From an uncultured Bacteroidia bacterium (GTDB taxonomy: Bacteria; Bacteroidota; Bacteroidia; Bacteroidales; UBA932): 64,000 nucleotides of DNA. A program made the translations under genes and the position numbers. Numbering within the stretch: position 1 is the stretch's first letter; the number at the start of each line of letters is the position of its first letter. The notes beneath the pieces were generated by a model. The model had not been told where the DNA came from and did not search any database. It saw only the letters and a list, made by a program, of their open reading frames with translations. Below are positions 4,773-16,091 of the stretch, one piece after another. The DNA is taken from assembly GCA_902781705.1 (NCBI GenBank), contig CACZKE010000001.1, positions 186,001-250,000 on the forward strand. Direction: 5' to 3'.

Positions 4773-5642
4773 TTAGGGTTTGAATTCAGCGCGGATGAAG
4801 ACGTTCTGGACGCATTCCTCCAGGGTGGCCATGCCGTCGGCGAGCCCCAGCTGGAGGGCGTCGCCGGCGAGGAAGTCGGCTCCGGAGAGGACGCCGTCCG
4901 CGTCGGTCTTCAGGGAAGGCCGTCCGGCTTTCACGGCGCTGTGAAAAGCCTGGACAAGCTTGGAAAGCTGCTGCTGCATCTTCTCAGGCTTGCCGTCCAG
5001 GGCCTCCCGGTAGGCGAGGTTCTTGTCGGTGGATTCAGGAGCGTAAACGGTGACGACCTTGAAGCCGGTCTGTTTGTCTTCCCGGTCATCCAGGAACTGT
5101 GCGTAGGCACCGATGGAGCCGAGGCCGGACAGGGCGTTGTCGGCAAAGATGGCATCGCATTGGCTGGCAACCCAGTAGGCGGCGGAATAGCAGCTGTCGA
5201 CATGGGCAATGACCGGCTTGCCGGCCGCCTTGATCCGAGCAATCGCTTCGACCATGGGCGCGACGGCATTGGCCGCACCGCCCGGGGAGTCGATATCCAG
5301 GACGAATCCGACCACGGACGGGTCGGAAAGATATCGGCCAATCCGTGTGGCCAACTGGGTGGTACCGTAGTTCTCGCACGTCTCGTATTTGGTCATCGAG
5401 CCGTGGATGGGAATGACGATGACGCGCCTGTTCTGCGCCTCTTCCTCCGTAGCCTGGACGGAGTCGCCGTCGGCGGACATCCGGAAAGCAGGAAGGGATA
5501 GCTCCGGAAGGGGATTGGCCTCCGAGAGTTGCCGGCTGAACAGGGCGTTGACGAGCGGCATGAAAATGCCGGGATCCTTAATGAGCCAGCTTCCGCGCCT
5601 CAGGTCAAGGAGAAGCTGGACGACATTCGTGTTTCTGGCCAT
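4773..5642 (-). CDS. S49-family phage capsid (head maturation) protease
   Basis: A 289-residue SppA/S49-type serine peptidase that would cut the scaffold region of the capsid protein during prohead maturation. The family strand VVGFVLDIDSPGG is at residues 110-122. The likely nucleophile is Ser153 in CYSAAYW, followed by the SGLGSIGAY strand at 172-180. Lys207 lies about 54 residues after the serine, as expected for the Ser-Lys dyad of S49 enzymes; assigning it is an inference. There is no signal peptide, which favours a phage role over membrane signal-peptide digestion. The capsid gene follows after 15 bases. Confidence 0.88.
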   Translation of the reverse strand: MARNTNVVQLLLDLRRGSWLIKDPGIFMPLVNALFSRQLSEANPLPELSLPAFRMSADGDSVQATEEEAQNRRVIVIPIHGSMTKYETCENYGTTQLATRIGRYLSDPSVVGFVLDIDSPGGAANAVAPMVEAIARIKAAGKPVIAHVDSCYSAAYWVASQCDAIFADNALSGLGSIGAYAQFLDDREDKQTGFKVVTVYAPESTDKNLAYREALDGKPEKMQQQLSKLVQAFHSAVKAGRPSLKTDADGVLSGADFLAGDALQLGLADGMATLEECVQNVFIRAEFKP

Positions 5643-7228: not shown

Positions 7229-7633
7229 TCAGAAGATGAAAGACAAGCGGCGACAAATTCCCTTTATGCCGTCGTGGATTCTTTTCTGCATCTCGGGACG
7301 AGGGTGACGCTGTCCGTTTGCGTAGTGGCTGAGCTGCTGCTCGGCGATGCCGGTTTCTTTGGAGAGAGCCTTCCGGGTAATAAAGTTGTCACAGTACTTT
7401 AACTGGGCCCGCGTGCTAAGGATAAACTCAGGCTCCCATTCTCCAAGAAGTTCCGCAGGGACCGGCTCTCCGTCCTCCTGAAGCCCTTCCACGTGGAATT
7501 GCAGGGCGCTTACAATGTTTTGCTCGACTTCTTCAAGGGTTTTGCCGGTGGCCACGCATGCGATATCCTCGTTTGCCGGGGAAGCGCCGTAGTTGTCCGG
7601 GACCCAGTCGATGTTGATTCTTACTTTAGCCAT
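7229..7633 (-). CDS. hicB: HicB-type antitoxin with C-terminal DNA-binding domain
   Basis: A 134-residue antitoxin. The N-terminal part (IACVATGKTLEEVEQNIVSALQFHVEGL) is the HicB fold, a degenerate RNase H-like domain that caps the HicA toxin. The C-terminal part (about residues 85-125, KALSKETGIAEQQLSHYANGQRHPRPEMQKRIHDGI) is an XRE-type helix-turn-helix that would bind the operator upstream of hicA. The gene follows hicA after about 50 bases and ends at a strong terminator. Toxin first, antitoxin second is the usual HicAB order. Confidence 0.88.
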   Translation of the reverse strand: MAKVRINIDWVPDNYGASPANEDIACVATGKTLEEVEQNIVSALQFHVEGLQEDGEPVPAELLGEWEPEFILSTRAQLKYCDNFITRKALSKETGIAEQQLSHYANGQRHPRPEMQKRIHDGIKGICRRLSFIF

Positions 7634-7686
7634 ATTTCGATTTGTGTTTAAAGTTGCTCTATTTCAGACGGAAGAGGGAGGGTGGA

Positions 7687-7884
7687 TTACTTCCACCCTG
7701 CCTGCTTCCAGATGCTGTTCAGTAGTTCTTGACTCAAATTCTCGCTCTCCTTTCCGTTGACTGTCACCGTTCCGGGCTTGCCTTTGGTATTCTTGAGTTG
7801 GCGGTGATCGCCTTTCGTTCTCTTGATTTCCCAGCCGTCTTTTCGGAGGAGGTCGAGGACTTGTTTGACTTTGTACCGTTTCAT
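7687..7884 (-). CDS. hicA: HicA-type mRNA interferase toxin
   Basis: A 65-residue HicA toxin, a small double-stranded-RNA-binding-like fold that cleaves mRNA when not bound by HicB. The conserved GDHRQ segment contains the catalytic histidine of the family. The start at 7884 (MKRYKVKQVLDLL) is chosen because the longer reading frame upstream runs through the promoter and AT-rich DNA. A good promoter lies 20-50 bases upstream. The length matches typical HicA proteins of about 60-80 residues. Such pairs in prophages usually help stabilise the element or defend against other phages; that role is inferred. Confidence 0.88.
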   Translation of the reverse strand: MKRYKVKQVLDLLRKDGWEIKRTKGDHRQLKNTKGKPGTVTVNGKESENLSQELLNSIWKQAGWK

Positions 7885-8485: not shown

Positions 8486-8674
8486 TCAATTCAGGATCTC
8501 GAGCATGGAAGAAGGATATCGGTTCAGGCGCAGCTGGTCGCCGCCGCCGAAGTCAAGGAACCAGGTGCTGTCGATGCCGAACACCTTGCCGGCATCGGCG
8601 CCATCGACGCGGACGATATCACCTTCGTGAATCATCCGGCCGTTCATATCAAAATGTCCTGTTGCTGTATTCAT
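8486..8674 (-). CDS. small beta-barrel-like phage protein (62 aa)
   Basis: A 62-residue protein with the pattern GRMIHEGDIVRVDGADAGKVFGIDSTWFLDF, which resembles the short barrel at the start of YopX-like phage proteins. Its start overlaps the stop of the primase-helicase gene (8671-8674), so it is translated together with it. Function unknown. Confidence 0.55.
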   Translation of the reverse strand: MNTATGHFDMNGRMIHEGDIVRVDGADAGKVFGIDSTWFLDFGGGDQLRLNRYPSSMLEILN

Positions 8675-11600
8675 TTCTCATACGATTTGCTATCATTGTC
8701 TGCGAATTCAAGTGTCAGTTCCGGAGGCGCAGGAGCGACGACGCCGGACAGATGGCTAGTGTAGTACTCCGAGTCCCCGACGATGAAGAACTCCCTGCCG
8801 TTGGATTTGTCCGTCCGGATGGGACGGCCGTCCTTGTCATAAGAATTCCAGGTCTTGGTTTGCGGGTTGTACAGGTGAGGGTTCAGGTAGTATTTTTTCA
8901 GCCGGACATAATACCCCAGGCGCATCGAGAAGGACTTGGGAGAATAGGATATCTTCGAACTCCGGGCTGTCTGGACATGCTCAATAAATGCCCGGTACAT
9001 GTCTTGCCGGAGAATCCGGACGTTAAGATGTCCTGCGTCTTCTGCAAAATACTCTTCTGCCCAAGTCATGAAATCTTCGCCGATCTGCTGTGCGAGGCGC
9101 CGGTCCTCCAAGCGGCTGTCGGGAGCCGGAACATACCCGAAACGGAAATATATCTGGATACACTGGGCTACCAGGTTCCAGAATAAGGTCCATTGGTCCG
9201 TGTCCCATTCCTCGAAGAATAGTGCGCCGAAGTCCTGGACAGGCTGGTGGTCCTCGTTATAGTAATCGCTGAAGGCCAGCGGCCATTGGCGGGCGCGATA
9301 GGAAGATCCGTCTCCGGATACGGAGAAGTTGCTGGAAAGATAGATCTTCGGAGCCTTTCCGAACGGGACGGTATAGGCCGCCTGTCCCTTGGGGTTCACC
9401 GGCCAGTCAGAGGTGATGAGCGAGAACAGGGAATCAAAGTCGAAATCCTTCATCAGGTCATCGCCGATGACAATCCGGGACCGTTCGTCCAGACCCTCCC
9501 AGATGAACTGCCGGTTGTTGTTGCTGACGCCAAGCGCCTTTCCGTCCAGGACTTTTGCCCGGGGGAAAATCTGCCGGAGGGCGAGCCCGACCAGAGATTT
9601 CCCCGTGCGGCCGTTTGCCTCATCGAACTCCTGCTGCTTCCCGTCCATGGCGATGACGGCTTTGGCCTGACCCATGTCCTTGTAAGAGTAGGCAAGGTAT
9701 CCGATAGCGGCCAGTTTGCTAATCAGGTGCTGCGCATTGCCGGCGATATCGATGGCCTCGAGCTCCTTCGCCTTCTTCCGCCAGGTGAAGTTGGACGTAT
9801 TGGCCAGGAACTGCAGGAAGTGACAGCGCTGCCCGATCTCCGTCAGTTCGGCGTGGAAATCTTGATTGGTATCCTGCCAAATCTTGATCAGGGGCGGTAG
9901 TAGCTGGATGCCGGAGAAGTCATGGATGGCATCTTGCCAGATGTTGAAACGGATCTCCTTTAGATCGCTTTCGATGATGCTCCGCTCAGTGATCTTCCAG
10001 GCCTTGTCTTTGAAAAACAGGTAGTCGAGCCCTCGTGAAGCTTCGAAGAAGGAGCCCTTGAAAGGCTCCAGCTGTTCCAGCTGATAGGGCCCGACATACT
10101 GTGTTCCGCCCCTGAGGAGGAGTTCCCTGACATCCTTGGGCAGATACGCCTTCGTGAATTCGTGGATGAAATTCGATACCTTCCGGGGTGTGACGGCCTT
10201 GACGATACCGTTTTCGACACGAATCAGGAAATAGTTGTCATCCGAACGTTCGTAGACGTGGAAGCCCCGGCGTTCGAGAAAGGTCATGGCGTTGGTATAC
10301 ACGAATTTCAGGGGCTCACCCTTGCGGGTCTCATCCTTTTCCCAGAACTGTTCGTCGATCTCGACGGGGCTGGCAGAAACCAGCTCGCCCTTTTCGTTGA
10401 ACTTGTACTTCCAGCCCATGCATATAAATTCACGGAGCACCTTCAGCTGGTCTTTGTACTGTTCGCAGAATACCTGTGCACTGGTGAGAAAGAACTGTTC
10501 CTTGATTTTCGTGGTAGTGACCTCCGTTATATTGTACAGCTGCACATAAGTCCCCTGCAGGAGATTCTGATGCATGGCCGTGTCGATATCCTCCCTCAGG
10601 CTGTCCTCCTTCCCCTTCAGGGAGTTCGTGAGGAGATCGTCGATCCCTTTGTCCCCGGCATCATTCTTCCTGACGTGGCCATAATAGACTTCCACATAAA
10701 TTTGCTGGTTTACCAGCTCGTTCATGTAAGACTTGTACTTGCAGACGGCCGAGAAGAAGGCGGAAGGCCGTTGATTTACGGGTTTCGTCTCCGACAGGTT
10801 CCTGGAAAGGTCGTGAAGGTCCGAGTCCATTAGGAACACGACTTGCTTGACCTTGCAGTCTCGGATGAGCTTGATCAGGTCCTGAGGCAGTTTCTTGTCC
10901 GGCCCACCCAGGTTCTGAATACCACTTATGGCCACCGAAGGTATCCCGTGCTTGCAGGCTTTCTCAGCCTTCTTCTCTCCTTCCTGGATGAAGAGCACAT
11001 CGATGGGCTCTTTCGTCCTGTACGCGGCACGTACCCTTTCGGGATAATAGATGAAAGTAGGTGATCCCGCTGGAGACCTGTATTTCATTGCGCTCCCTGA
11101 TTTGTCTTTATGTGCGTCCGGGAATTGGTACCTGATCCGGTAATACGGCCTTTCCACGGGCTTGTATCCCTTGGGGGAGTACGTGTAGGTGCAGGGATTT
11201 CCCTCGATGTCATAATATCGAATCACCGCATCGTCGCCGGCGGGGTCGATTTCATATCTGTCATTGATGGTTCCTTTTTGGAAGGTGACAACCTCACGTG
11301 CATCCGAATCACCCAGGGCAAGCCGCACATGGGCCGTTACGTCCTCTTTGGTCAGACCGGACTCTTCGAGCATTCTGGAACAGAAGGACCTTGAATCGTC
11401 TATAGCGTTGTCGTATTTCTTCTCTTCCCTCTTGCCGGCCGTGGCCTTCCTGGCGGGCATCTTCCGAGGCTCATCGTAAACGGGAATCTCGCCATAATGA
11501 TGGCAGACGCACTCAACAGCCTCCTGCAACGACATCCGGGGCCCGAGTCCCATCAGGAAGTTGATGGCGTTTTTTCCGCCGACCTCATTGCAGGAAAAGC

Positions 11601-11793
11601 ATTTGTAGATCATCTTTTTGGGCGTGACGATGAGCGACCCCGCGTGACAGTGGGGGCAGACAAATGTCGTCTCTGCGTTGCTCCGTTCTTTCGGATCACC
11701 GGCTACTTCCTGGATTACGTCCAATAGTAGCTTCTCATCCTTATTAACCCGGTCGTATATTCCGTTCAGGAAATCCTTGTTAAGAAATGCCAT
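8671..11793 (-). CDS. phage DNA primase-helicase (CHC2 zinc finger, TOPRIM, P-loop helicase)
   Basis: A 1040-residue replication protein joining primase and helicase activities. A CHC2-type zinc-binding site uses Cys46, Cys49, Cys65 and Cys68 (CPHC...CFSC). A TOPRIM-like region follows at about 260-350, with the EGEKKAEK element near 270 and the metal-binding MDSDLHD near 323. The C-terminal half carries a P-loop ATPase with GRTGKS near 730 and a Walker B-like IVIGDD near 776, followed by a KIYLSSNF strand typical of superfamily 3-like phage helicases. It heads a leftward operon. A hairpin sits just before its start codon. Confidence 0.9.
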   Translation of the reverse strand: MAFLNKDFLNGIYDRVNKDEKLLLDVIQEVAGDPKERSNAETTFVCPHCHAGSLIVTPKKMIYKCFSCNEVGGKNAINFLMGLGPRMSLQEAVECVCHHYGEIPVYDEPRKMPARKATAGKREEKKYDNAIDDSRSFCSRMLEESGLTKEDVTAHVRLALGDSDAREVVTFQKGTINDRYEIDPAGDDAVIRYYDIEGNPCTYTYSPKGYKPVERPYYRIRYQFPDAHKDKSGSAMKYRSPAGSPTFIYYPERVRAAYRTKEPIDVLFIQEGEKKAEKACKHGIPSVAISGIQNLGGPDKKLPQDLIKLIRDCKVKQVVFLMDSDLHDLSRNLSETKPVNQRPSAFFSAVCKYKSYMNELVNQQIYVEVYYGHVRKNDAGDKGIDDLLTNSLKGKEDSLREDIDTAMHQNLLQGTYVQLYNITEVTTTKIKEQFFLTSAQVFCEQYKDQLKVLREFICMGWKYKFNEKGELVSASPVEIDEQFWEKDETRKGEPLKFVYTNAMTFLERRGFHVYERSDDNYFLIRVENGIVKAVTPRKVSNFIHEFTKAYLPKDVRELLLRGGTQYVGPYQLEQLEPFKGSFFEASRGLDYLFFKDKAWKITERSIIESDLKEIRFNIWQDAIHDFSGIQLLPPLIKIWQDTNQDFHAELTEIGQRCHFLQFLANTSNFTWRKKAKELEAIDIAGNAQHLISKLAAIGYLAYSYKDMGQAKAVIAMDGKQQEFDEANGRTGKSLVGLALRQIFPRAKVLDGKALGVSNNNRQFIWEGLDERSRIVIGDDLMKDFDFDSLFSLITSDWPVNPKGQAAYTVPFGKAPKIYLSSNFSVSGDGSSYRARQWPLAFSDYYNEDHQPVQDFGALFFEEWDTDQWTLFWNLVAQCIQIYFRFGYVPAPDSRLEDRRLAQQIGEDFMTWAEEYFAEDAGHLNVRILRQDMYRAFIEHVQTARSSKISYSPKSFSMRLGYYVRLKKYYLNPHLYNPQTKTWNSYDKDGRPIRTDKSNGREFFIVGDSEYYTSHLSGVVAPAPPELTLEFADNDSKSYEK

Positions 11794-11803
11794 TGATATT
11801 AAA

Positions 11804-11819
11804 GTGGATGAAAATCCAC
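11804..11819 (-). promoter_or_regulatory. hairpin just upstream of the primase start codon
   Basis: A perfect six-base-pair stem with a four-base loop (GTGGAT, TTTC, ATCCAC on the minus strand) ends 10 bases before the primase ATG, over the normal ribosome-binding position. It may control translation. A purine-rich stretch (GGGGAGGGG) lies just upstream of it. Confidence 0.45.
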
Positions 11820-11885
11820 CCCTCCCCTATTGTTTTAAATCATTGATACAAAGTGAAATAATTCGCAAAATTTGATAAATAAATT

Positions 11886-11915
11886 TTGTTAATTCAAGAT
11901 TATTTCGTACCTTTG
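11886..11915 (+). promoter_or_regulatory. strong Bacteroidota-type promoter
   Basis: TTG at 11886-11888, exactly 19 bases, then TACCTTTG at 11908-11915, in a very AT-rich upstream setting. Transcription would begin near 11921, the first base of the structured region that follows. Confidence 0.75.
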
Positions 11916-11920
11916 TAATG

Positions 11921-12107
11921 CCGAAAGGGAAGAGCCCTGGAGAGTCGGAAATCCGAAGCCGGCAAGTAGGAAAAACTAAAACCGAAGAGACATGAGCTTT
12001 AGAATCATCCTCAAGGTTTGGAGATTCAAAATCGAGTTGGCCCTCAGTCTTTAATCTCCAGCCAAGGCTCCCGGGCAAGGCCCGGGATGCCTCTTCGGCT
12101 TTAGTTC
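11921..12107 (+). ncRNA. candidate structured RNA or long structured leader
   Basis: The stretch between the promoter at 11886-11915 and the gene at 12130 has no convincing reading frame but can fold heavily. Small hairpins occur at 11926-11938 and 11945-11956. A long outer stem pairs 11974-11989 with 12091-12106, 15 of 16 bases. Inside it, 12019-12026 pairs with 12053-12060 (8 of 8) and 12069-12076 pairs with 12080-12087 (8 of 8, three-base loop). The word CCGAA occurs three times (near 11921, 11953 and 11982) against a single TTCGG, so alternative pairings are possible. No U-run terminator is seen, so it may be the leader of the 65-residue gene. I do not recognise a known RNA family. Confidence 0.55.
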
Positions 12108-12129
12108 ACCGCAAAAGTACGAAACAATC

Positions 12130-12327
12130 ATGGAAGAAACAAAACTTTCAAAGAGCTGGGGCGGCGCCCGCGAGGGAGCCGGCCGCAAGGCGATGGATCC
12201 GTCCGAGAAGAAAGCAGCATGCACTTTCTACCTGGATCCAGAGCACAAGGAGAAGATGAAAGCCGCCGCCAAGGCGGCAGGGCTTTCCCTCAGCGAGCTC
12301 CTGGCTCGGATGATCGACAGCCTCTGA
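12130..12327 (+). CDS. small ribbon-helix-helix-like protein (65 aa)
   Basis: A 65-residue basic protein. The WGGAREGAGRK segment is a common N-terminal tag of small phage and plasmid DNA-binding proteins. The rest (CTFYLDPEHKEKMKAAAKAAGLSLSELLARMIDSL) has the strand-helix-helix pattern of Arc/CopG-type proteins. It lies at the end of the structured leader, on the strand opposite to most phage genes, so it probably depends on the 11886-11915 promoter. No clear ribosome-binding site is seen before the ATG. A role as a local regulator is inferred. Confidence 0.65.
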   Translation: MEETKLSKSWGGAREGAGRKAMDPSEKKAACTFYLDPEHKEKMKAAAKAAGLSLSELLARMIDSL

Positions 12328-12329
12328 GA

Positions 12330-12533
12330 TCATTCTTTCAGGACCAGGCTTTCCACCATATCGAGAAGCTTCCCGATCCGGTTTTGTTTCTGCGCTATTT
12401 TCACGGCCTCTTCAGGCGTGAATACAGGGCCATTCTCGATACAGTCCTCTACGGATTCCAAGTGCGCCTTTAGGGCGCGCTTGATTTCGTCTATGTCGGT
12501 AGGGCCCAATGGGCCCAGGTAGTACTTGGCCAT
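12330..12533 (-). CDS. small helical phage protein (67 aa)
   Basis: A 67-residue acidic helical protein (IDEIKRALKAHLESVEDCIENG, then EEAVKIAQKQNRIGKLLDMVESLV). It converges on the 65-residue gene, the two stops being only two bases apart. Possible coiled coil. No recognised family; the pattern is gene-like but support is limited to length, composition and packing. Confidence 0.5.
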   Translation of the reverse strand: MAKYYLGPLGPTDIDEIKRALKAHLESVEDCIENGPVFTPEEAVKIAQKQNRIGKLLDMVESLVLKE

Positions 12534-12558
12534 AATAATTATGAGTCGTTCAAAATGG

Positions 12559-12662
12559 TGAAGGCCCCGGAGTCGAACCGGCCGGATGTCCGTATCCTAA
12601 TATGGCTGATCTCGACTAAACACAAAACTGTCGGTCATCCGTTGCGCCAGCGCAGGCCTTCA
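12559..12662 (-). pseudogene. tRNA-like remnant
   Basis: The minus strand contains a classic T-arm (CCGG, loop TTCGACT, CCGG; 12581-12567). It is directly followed by an arm GGCCTTCA (12566-12559) that pairs perfectly with TGAAGGCC at 12662-12655, as acceptor-stem strands would. A GGCGCAACGGAT stretch resembles a tRNA D-loop. However, no standard D-stem or anticodon stem-loop can be drawn, and the T-stem is one base short relative to the acceptor stem. It is either a decayed tRNA or a tRNA mimic; the former is more likely. Confidence 0.4.
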
Positions 12663-12667
12663 TGGGG

Positions 12668-12690
12668 TGGGCGGCTCCGGCTGCCGCCCA
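12668..12690. other. GC-rich hairpin
   Basis: Perfect eight-base-pair stem TGGGCGGC/GCCGCCCA with a seven-base loop, downstream of the minus-strand gene ending at 12736. No T-run follows on either strand, so it is not a standard terminator. It abuts the tRNA-like remnant. Confidence 0.5.
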
Positions 12691-12735
12691 GGGTGGGGGT
12701 TATCTACTCGTTCCGGTACGAGGGCTTTGGCGAGC

Positions 12736-13101
12736 TTATTTGTTGAGAGAATTGATTGTGTCGTTGAATGTGGAAGGGTCGGAGAAAGCGTGCAGGTCCT
12801 CCTTGATCCAGACGAAACGGATGTAGATGGTCCCGCAGCGCAAGGACGCGGAGTCGTAGTGTCCCTGGACGGACACGTCGTGCGGCCAGTCGCAGTGGAA
12901 GGAACAGGATATGTCTTCCTGCTTTGCCCGGCGGTTCTGTTCCAGGAACAGCTGCTGTCGCTTGATCAGGAAGTCCCGGAATTCCTCGATCCAGATCTTG
13001 CTGCAGTTGTAGTGGATAAGCGGCTTGACAAGGGGAAGGAGGTGGCGGGACGCGGCCTTCAGGTCGGATAATTGGTAGTTGATGGATTCGCAGAAATACA
13101 T
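12736..13101 (-). CDS. hypothetical phage protein (121 aa)
   Basis: A 121-residue protein with a helical N-terminal half (LKAASRHLLPLVKPLIHYNCSKIWIEEFRDFLIKRQQLFLEQNRR) and a beta-rich C-terminal half containing several His and Cys residues. I preferred this frame over the overlapping 142-residue frame because its composition is balanced, whereas the other is rich in Pro and Arg as shadow frames are. Function unknown. Confidence 0.55.
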   Translation of the reverse strand: MYFCESINYQLSDLKAASRHLLPLVKPLIHYNCSKIWIEEFRDFLIKRQQLFLEQNRRAKQEDISCSFHCDWPHDVSVQGHYDSASLRCGTIYIRFVWIKEDLHAFSDPSTFNDTINSLNK

Positions 13102-15454: not shown

Positions 15455-15769
15455 ATGGATGAACTAGAGCGCAATCTGGACGAAGTACGTCAGCTTATTC
15501 AATATGTCGAACATGTCAACGAAAAATGGAAAGTCGGTCTTCCAGAAATTGATCCAAGTTTTCGCCCAACCGGATACAGAAATCAACTCGATGGAATCGG
15601 ACAACAAGAACGAATCCTTCGAAAGCTCCGAGAGCGAGCGGCAGGACTTGAGCAAAAAATCAACAGTCGTAGAAACCATGATGCCGGAGATACAACCGGA
15701 AGCTCAGACCTTTTCACCCAGGAGGGCGCCACGCAATGTGGAGAAAAAGAGAGTCTGTACGGAGAATAG
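15455..15769 (+). CDS. short reading frame overlapping the BRCT gene start (doubtful)
   Basis: A 104-codon frame beginning nine bases after the regulator's stop: MDELERNLDEVRQLIQYVEHVNEKWKV at its N-terminus looks like a real helical protein. From about residue 35 it overlaps the BRCT frame and becomes less protein-like. Either a small gene overlaps the BRCT gene, or an ancestral frame was shifted, the N-terminal part here continuing into the BRCT frame. I cannot tell which. Confidence 0.3.
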   Translation: MDELERNLDEVRQLIQYVEHVNEKWKVGLPEIDPSFRPTGYRNQLDGIGQQERILRKLRERAAGLEQKINSRRNHDAGDTTGSSDLFTQEGATQCGEKESLYGE

Positions 15770-16091
15770 AGGATGGGCAGAAGGAAGTATGCCCGATAAT
15801 TATTTCAATGGGAAGACAATCGTAATTACGGGTGATATGTTGTTACTCGGCGAACGCAATCCTCTTGCTGGTCTACTCAAGAGCTTGGGTGCCAGGGTGA
15901 CATCGTCCGTCAGTCAAAAGACTGACATCGTGGTTGTAGGGGAGAAACCGGGTCCTTCCAAACTGGAGAAAGTCGCGACCCTTGCAGGAGAGGGCGTTGA
16001 CATCCGCTTGATGACAGAGCTAGAGCTTATCCTCACGCTTCACGATGAAGGAGTCAATCTCCTGGAATTCGTCCAGGGTTTTGAAGAATAA
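15504..16091 (+). CDS. BRCT-domain protein
   Basis: A 195-residue protein. Residues 1-95 are a polar, Ser/Glu-rich linker. Residues about 100-180 are a BRCT domain of the kind found at the end of NAD-dependent DNA ligases: FNGKTIVITG, then GARVTSSVSQKTDIVVVGEKPGPSKLEKVATLAGEGVDI with the conserved Gly-Lys pattern. BRCT domains bind DNA ends or phosphopeptides and are rare outside ligases in bacteria. A downstream start near 15789 (MPDNYFNGK) would give the domain alone. It shares a direct repeat with the regulator gene upstream. A role in phage DNA handling is inferred. Confidence 0.75.
   Translation: MSNMSTKNGKSVFQKLIQVFAQPDTEINSMESDNKNESFESSESERQDLSKKSTVVETMMPEIQPEAQTFSPRRAPRNVEKKRVCTENRGWAEGSMPDNYFNGKTIVITGDMLLLGERNPLAGLLKSLGARVTSSVSQKTDIVVVGEKPGPSKLEKVATLAGEGVDIRLMTELELILTLHDEGVNLLEFVQGFEE

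Follow-up and report, generated by a model that had tools for sequence, protein, structure and literature searches.

A prophage of an uncultured Bacteroidia bacterium carries, just upstream of a small ribbon-helix-helix (RHH)-like gene, a strong promoter followed by DNA rich in complementary segments, and the question that this locus raises is what it produces and from which strand. A first-pass annotation of the 64,000-nucleotide stretch of DNA analysed here (the whole of which is referred to as the window) had read the locus as an apparently non-coding plus-strand RNA that could switch between folds, with a regulatory leader, an antisense RNA or a part in replication among its possible roles. 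The reading that we favour, with a probability of about 0.6, is that of a compact type I toxin-antitoxin-like peptide/antisense-RNA module located on prophages and phages of one Bacteroidales genus. Its computed basis consists of a conserved open reading frame (ORF), paired promoter boxes, a covarying stem and a wobble bias to the minus strand. The promoter, the conserved structure and the antisense option of the earlier interpretation have stood, whereas the non-coding character, the proposed competition among CCGAA words and the restriction to the plus strand have not.

The locus and its surroundings

The features of the locus, in window coordinates and with the evidence for each in brackets, are as follows.

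11885–11915, plus strand: promoter, with TTTG at 11885–11888, a 19-base spacer and the −7 box TACCTTTG at 11908–11915 (read in the sequence)
11944–11972, plus strand: putative shortened DUF805b-like leader pseudoknot, with a UCGG..CCGG stem and loop UCC with GGA (by eye, against the relative L011)
11969–12107, minus strand: predicted antisense RNA, with predicted ends (fold, z-scores, wobble bias, T-run)
11974–11989, plus strand: 5' arm of the outer stem, directly before the start codon (reading, folding, arm permutation)
11992–12054, plus strand: short ORF of 20 codons plus stop, MSFRIILKVWRFKIELALSL (conserved frame, genus profile matches, nine members)
12019–12060, no strand assigned: inner stem TGGAGATT/AATCTCCA, 12019–12026 with 12053–12060 (reading, folding)
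12067–12090, no strand assigned: GC-rich inner hairpin GC-TCCCGGGC-AAG-GCCCGGGA-T-GC (reading, folding)
12091–12106, plus strand: 3' arm of the outer stem (reading, arm permutation)
12112–12143, minus strand: convergent promoter, with the −7 box TACTTTTG at 12119–12112 and an upstream TTTG at 12143–12140 (read in the window)
12130–12327, plus strand: 65-codon RHH-like protein with the N-terminus WGGAREGAGRK (Pfam, PHROG)

Much of the earlier description of this region is borne out: the near-perfect promoter is present as TTTG-N19-TACCTTTG at 11885–11915, a 16-bp outer stem with one mismatch and two 8-bp inner stems are found as described, and 23 bases separate the outer stem from the RHH start codon at 12130. 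The product of the RHH-like gene scores below the Pfam cut-offs (NikA-like, 25.7 bits against a cut-off of 27; RHH_3, 16.5 against 21.6) and matches an Arc-like repressor in PHROG (E 0.0086). The prophage nature of the window is indicated by a head maturation protease (4773–5642, PHROG) and a primase (8671–11793). Two other gene arrangements were observed in the prophage, viz. a BRCT-domain protein like the end of NAD-dependent DNA ligases (15504–16091, plus strand), which adjoins a repressor-like gene at the prophage edge, and two adjoining small genes (7229–7872, minus strand) that by eye resemble a HicA/HicB toxin-antitoxin pair and for which PADLOC gave a weak unrelated match only.

Family members, the short reading frame and the outer stem

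Our searches have identified nine members of this family, viz. the window, six other genomes of the same Bacteroidales genus and two IMG/VR viral contigs (the members besides the window being L011, L150, L156, L163, L164, L165, L166, and L181). All nine contain a peptide ORF of 20–26 residues, with K-x-W in 8/9, and in all nine this ORF is flanked by complementary arms, by a TAnnTTTG box upstream (−79 to −112 from the ATG) and by a convergent TAnnTTTG box downstream (+109 to +132). Members were scored on the TAnnTTTG box, the upstream TTTG of the minus promoter having been read in the window only. The 9/9 box count is partly circular, because L165, L166, and L156 were admitted partly on layout; for the remaining six, picked irrespective of layout, the unbiased count is 6/6. 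As a control, 5,445 ORFs of 18–27 codons were scanned (1.31 Mb fetched, in partly overlapping loci); the plus box was present in 116 of them, the minus box in 96 and both boxes in 25, and these 25 correspond to ten distinct peptides, nine of them members.

The members were reached by different routes. L011 is one of 14 RHH relatives in viral contigs whose upstream DNA was inspected, the other 13 being without the module or any aligning upstream DNA. The RHH-like gene also led to L150, the third relative, and to L156, whose peptide differs in sequence and has 26 residues and which was admitted for its layout; of 12 RHH places (upstream DNA viewed at six of them plus L146), four have the module, viz. 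the window, L150, L156, and L154, the gene beside L164. A peptide profile searched against 300 genus genomes matched the window's own genome, L150, L163 (E 8.5e-10), and L164 (1.8e-5), and more weakly L165 (E 0.011) and L166 (0.0135), both admitted for layout. In total 48 of the 300 genomes have a match at E<=0.5, six of which are members; nine of the profile loci were viewed, giving four new members and five judged to be chance, and the other returned loci were covered by the two-box scan alone. L181 came from a DNA pattern search of IMG/VR, in which exact patterns returned the contig of L011 (L108) every time and, besides it, L181 and L109, the last rejected as a chance pattern match in repetitive sequence. 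Searched against 295 genomes of the order, the peptide profile returned the window's own genome only, and so did a strict DNA pattern in 398 genomes of the family. In phage and plasmid collections the window stretch found no match, and L011 matched 11 records by its promoter end alone.

The outer stem of the window encloses the 20-codon ORF. The upstream DNA of L011 aligns with the window RNA, and its best conserved stretch starts at the ATG; the peptides of the window (MSFRIILKVWRFKIELALSL), L011 (MSFRITIKIWRLRLTMELAI), and L150 (MSIRIILKVWKVRIELAVSI) are 20 codons each, and the peptide frame is the sole frame open in all three. Compared with a null in which the same substitutions are assigned to different positions, amino-acid similarity exceeds expectation in 3/3 pairs of these members (P 0.0003, 0.003, and 0.0098). 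The differences by codon position (5, 3, 8; 8, 5, 9; 9, 4, 8) have no strong third-position excess, which was counted against coding. The first-pass annotation had itself named a conserved reading frame as evidence against a non-coding RNA, and because such a frame was found, conserved at the protein level (P 0.0003–0.01), that reading fails. A short conserved peptide ORF is also what a type I toxin-antitoxin system calls for. The charge of the member peptides is +2 to +7 and their beta-type amphipathic moment is high; they are unlike a classical membrane helix, which counts against a type I reading. Pfam gave no match to them, their profile made one unrelated chance match among PDB chains (E 2.5), and PADLOC recognised neither the peptide nor the RHH-like protein.

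The outer stem covaries among the members. Its arms have diverged, viz. CTAAAACCGAAGAG (window), AACCCACCAA (L011), CTGAAACCGGAAAGG (L164), CCTACCAAAG (L165), AAAACCCGA (L166), and AAAAGACC (L156), and each is matched by its own complement. The duplex energies of cognate arms sum to −175.3 on the plus strand against a permuted mean of −117.7 (0/50,000 permutations as good) and to −217.3 against −148.9 on the minus strand (1/50,000 tied or better in one run, 0 in a second), and for the six members picked irrespective of layout the true pairing is alone among 720 in being that good, on either strand. Taken one member at a time, an arm has no better partner than its cognate in only 4/9 members on the plus strand (window, L150 tied, L011, and L164) and in 4/9 on the minus strand, because arm sequence is shared within subgroups. 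Where the window has its GC-rich inner hairpin, the relatives place a hairpin of other sequence.

Folding of 11921–12130, proposed earlier as a check, modestly beats shuffles (z −2.3; 3/200 shuffles as good). The stem-enclosed core of the window reaches z −3.9 to −4.5 on the plus strand and −5.9 to −6.6 on the minus strand. Folding energy picks no strand, since the mean z of the member cores is −5.6 on plus versus −5.3 on minus, and this was counted against our preferred reading. The idea that three CCGAA words compete in a switch does not extend to the relatives, as CCGAA occurs in the leaders of L150 and L163 in the stem arm alone and is missing from the arm of L011. In agreement with the earlier remark that the RNA matches no known family, an Rfam search of the window found no family at threshold, and a permissive search of 11700–12800 gave five low-scoring matches, all far below their cut-offs.

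The surroundings of the members are diverse. The RHH-like gene follows the module in 7/9 members, L166 and L181 being without it. L163 adjoins a DnaG-type primase and L165 a similar protein (by eye), a protein with a weak Toprim match is encoded about 2.6 kb from L011, terminase and capsid genes lie near L164, and L166 adjoins a tyrosine integrase that runs toward the module; L181 is near the end of its viral contig, after a long co-oriented gene run in which the gene checked matches a PHROG of unknown function. A repressor-like gene lies near the module in the window and L163 (by eye). The earlier suggestions of an RHH-gene leader or a part in replication are not general, because L166 and L181 lack the RHH-like gene and, over the stretches seen, have no replication genes next to them.

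Promoters, predicted transcripts and the leader

The plus promoter fits the Bacteroidota-type promoter consensus. Only the 5' part of the element, viz. the promoter and the first bases that follow, matches elsewhere, at nine places outside the window locus in the window's own genome and 100 relatives, and six of the eight that were scanned with ARAGORN directly precede a tRNA gene. Because similar promoters directly precede tRNA genes, the window promoter resembles host stable-RNA promoters. A tRNA or tmRNA inside the element itself was considered and rejected, as ARAGORN calls none in the window and the similar promoter and leader are the sole tie. Transcription from the plus promoter would start at about 11921, and the transcript would cross the leader and the 16-bp outer stem and run into the RHH-like gene at 12130. 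No plus-strand terminator was found by reading between the short ORF and the RHH-like gene in the window, which was counted against a type I reading.

The plus strand is not the only candidate source of RNA: the first-pass annotation missed the convergent minus promoter with its box TACTTTTG. Such a box is present in 9/9 members, and an antisense RNA had been listed among the options. The antisense RNA predicted from the minus promoter would end at the U-tract after the outer stem. On the minus strand a run of at least five T lies at or just inside the arm end in 6/9 members (window, L150, L011, L163, L165, and L181). Counted against this prediction were the T-runs of L156 and L166, which lie inside the arm, that of L164, which is three T long, and the loop of about 100 bases that the would-be terminator closes, which is unusual. 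The outer stem of the window has one A.C mismatch on the plus strand, and on the minus strand no mismatch and one G-U only. Over all members the outer-stem cells comprise 103 Watson-Crick pairs, 0 G-U on plus, 6 A.C on plus (equal to G-U on minus), and 4 others; this lean to the minus strand is suggestive only, because a single position in four related members accounts for four of the six A.C cells and the remaining two lie at stem ends.

The leader of L011 is an instance of the Rfam family DUF805b (RF02914), scoring 44.2 bits against a gathering threshold of 35.6 over 35 nt of leader; it is the one member that passes, the other eight being unscored by Rfam, and the window gave no match to this family at gathering or at E<=10. 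By eye, modified forms that resemble it occur in the leaders of the window, L150, L163, L164, L165, and L181, and none is visible in L166 and L156. DUF805b occurs in 16 of 101 genus genomes at E<=0.001, 13 of them above the cut-off. Among 27 DUF805b loci (L118–L144), a script located the motif in 11 loci and, downstream of it, an ATG in 10; this ATG is 21–31 bases from TAGG in nine loci (54 in L130, where another TAGG was caught), the distance in the window is 25, and several of the start codons belong to short peptide genes. In 26/27 loci the base preceding the loop dinucleotide makes a standard pair with the third base after GUA (six pair types; 0/50,000 permutations as good), the triplets having been assigned by eye, as regex scripts mis-assigned them (5/14 paired, no signal). 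The same pairing base fits in the window, L011, and L165 and fails in L164. DUF805b RNA is hence probably a pseudoknot situated shortly upstream of a start codon, at a nearly constant distance from it, and this speaks for use of the ATG at 11992; a leader of this type may tune translation of the peptide. A search of open-access papers found none naming DUF805b.

Candidate explanations and known systems

In the type I-like module that we favour, the plus promoter would produce an mRNA for a basic, amphipathic peptide of 20 residues, and the inverted repeat would fold the 3' part of this mRNA onto the stretch before the start codon, leaving the full-length message silent. The minus promoter would start an antisense RNA at about the edge of the repeat; this RNA would fold on the same repeat, end at the U-tract behind it and, being complementary to the whole ORF and the start region, block any mRNA that had opened. 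Upon loss or disturbance of the prophage, the antisense RNA would be the first to decay, whereupon the peptide would be synthesised, and the RHH-like protein would regulate transcription of the module. Both transcripts, their termination, the silencing, the toxicity and the role of the RHH-like protein are predictions. A more specific proposal, which we hold tentatively and at somewhat below even odds, is that the module represents a previously undescribed phage-borne type I family in which one repeat shuts the mRNA, serves as the body of the antisense RNA and provides its terminator, with the peptide belonging to a new basic, beta-amphipathic class and a DUF805b-type leader possibly adjusting translation. 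A shallow search of the open-access literature, in which some terms ranked poorly, turned up no description of a type I toxin-antitoxin system from Bacteroides or Bacteroidota. If the module is real, a group of gut bacteria gains a type I system on its prophages, and the nine natural variants with covarying stems are directly testable. The locus also illustrates that a gene of 20 codons can hide inside an apparent structured non-coding RNA.

Two known systems resemble the module in layout, and kinship to either is not established. In aapA/IsoA of Helicobacter pylori (PMC6733600), a cis antisense RNA lies opposite a 30-residue toxin ORF, the mRNA of about 225 nt is silenced by long-distance 5'–3' pairing covering the ribosome site, and IsoA3, of 80 nt, has its promoter inside the ORF. 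The small peptide ORF is shared with this system, and the opposite-strand antisense RNA and the long-distance pairing over the start region are predicted here, the 5' arm preceding the ATG and covarying; unlike there, the minus promoter of the window lies outside the 3' arm and the predicted antisense RNA spans the whole repeat, and the aapA/IsoA host belongs to another phylum. No sequence kinship to AapA was found, the peptides having been compared via the PDB-chain profile and Pfam and not with AapA directly. In par/Fst of plasmid pAD1, which is also present on phages and plasmids, a small toxin mRNA and an antisense RNA are transcribed from convergent promoters and intramolecular stems hide the ribosome site (PMC7472228); the system has an RNA II of about 40 nt, a shared bidirectional terminator, direct repeats and a 33-residue membrane helix, Fst. 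Convergent promoters, a stem hiding the start region (predicted here) and carriage on phages are common to both; par differs in its shared terminator and direct repeats, and the window peptide is no classical membrane helix. A further comparison is with C4/c4-2 (RF02944), a phage antisense RNA of the immunity or replication region, a setting like that of the window, where c4-2 found no match at gathering or permissively.

A possible but unlikely alternative is that the locus controls a phage decision, the peptide being an anti-repressor or signal whose level is set by the antisense RNA and the RHH-like protein. Phage P22 offers a precedent, with sar RNA and Arc/Mnt control around ant. The RHH-like gene that follows in 7/9 members, with its Arc-like PHROG match (E 0.0086), is in keeping with this explanation, as are the replication genes near the module in the window, L011, L163, and L165 (the last by eye) and the repressor-like gene near it in the window and L163 (by eye); it is opposed by L166 and L181, which have no RHH-like gene and are located elsewhere, and by the frequency of RHH relatives without the module (13/14 in viral contigs).

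Improbable, in our view, is that the minus RNA serves the early (primase) operon as an attenuated leader, with the peptide ORF being of secondary importance. The minus promoter of the window does point at the primase, with a U-tract after the stem, small genes and a replicase lie in that direction in L163 and L165, and relatives of the primase bear another structured RNA at that place. However, the minus RNA of L166 would meet a convergent integrase gene, the ORFs of at least 60 codons in L181 are nearly all on the opposite strand (one 147-codon minus ORF is present), and the plus ORF is conserved as a protein. The view that the plus strand gives a non-coding switching RNA or an RHH leader with no translated peptide has in its favour the strong promoter, the strong fold and the lack of an Rfam family, and is made hardly credible by the conserved ORF and the absence of CCGAA competition in L150, L163, and L011.

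Other structured RNAs were observed near such loci. The RNA located upstream of the primase in 76–80% relatives was rejected as a homologue of the module: it occupies the same place and has a different sequence, pairing and terminator. This second structured RNA, on the primase strand, is seen in L037, L039, L041, L042, and L069; by eye, its outer-stem 3' arm is complementary not only to the 5' arm but also to the start-codon region of the gene that follows, and changes in the three segments go together. No c4-2 match was obtained at gathering in L037, L038, L039, L041, L042, and L069. A similar element in L156 (2168–2259, plus strand), separate from the module and about 0.3 kb from it, scores 38.8 bits for c4-2 (gathering 41; E 3e-5). 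Lastly, the window contains at 12559–12662 (minus strand) a tRNA-like fold uncalled by ARAGORN and no better than shuffles (z −1.0), with an 8-bp acceptor stem UGAAGGCC/GGCCUUCA followed by CCA, a T-arm CCGG-UUCGACU-CCGG, a short D-like arm and, where an anticodon arm would be, a long arm. By eye, L038 and L069 have a similar element with another acceptor stem between the RNA/primase and the early genes, and L011 has a possible remnant of it at 1141–1215.
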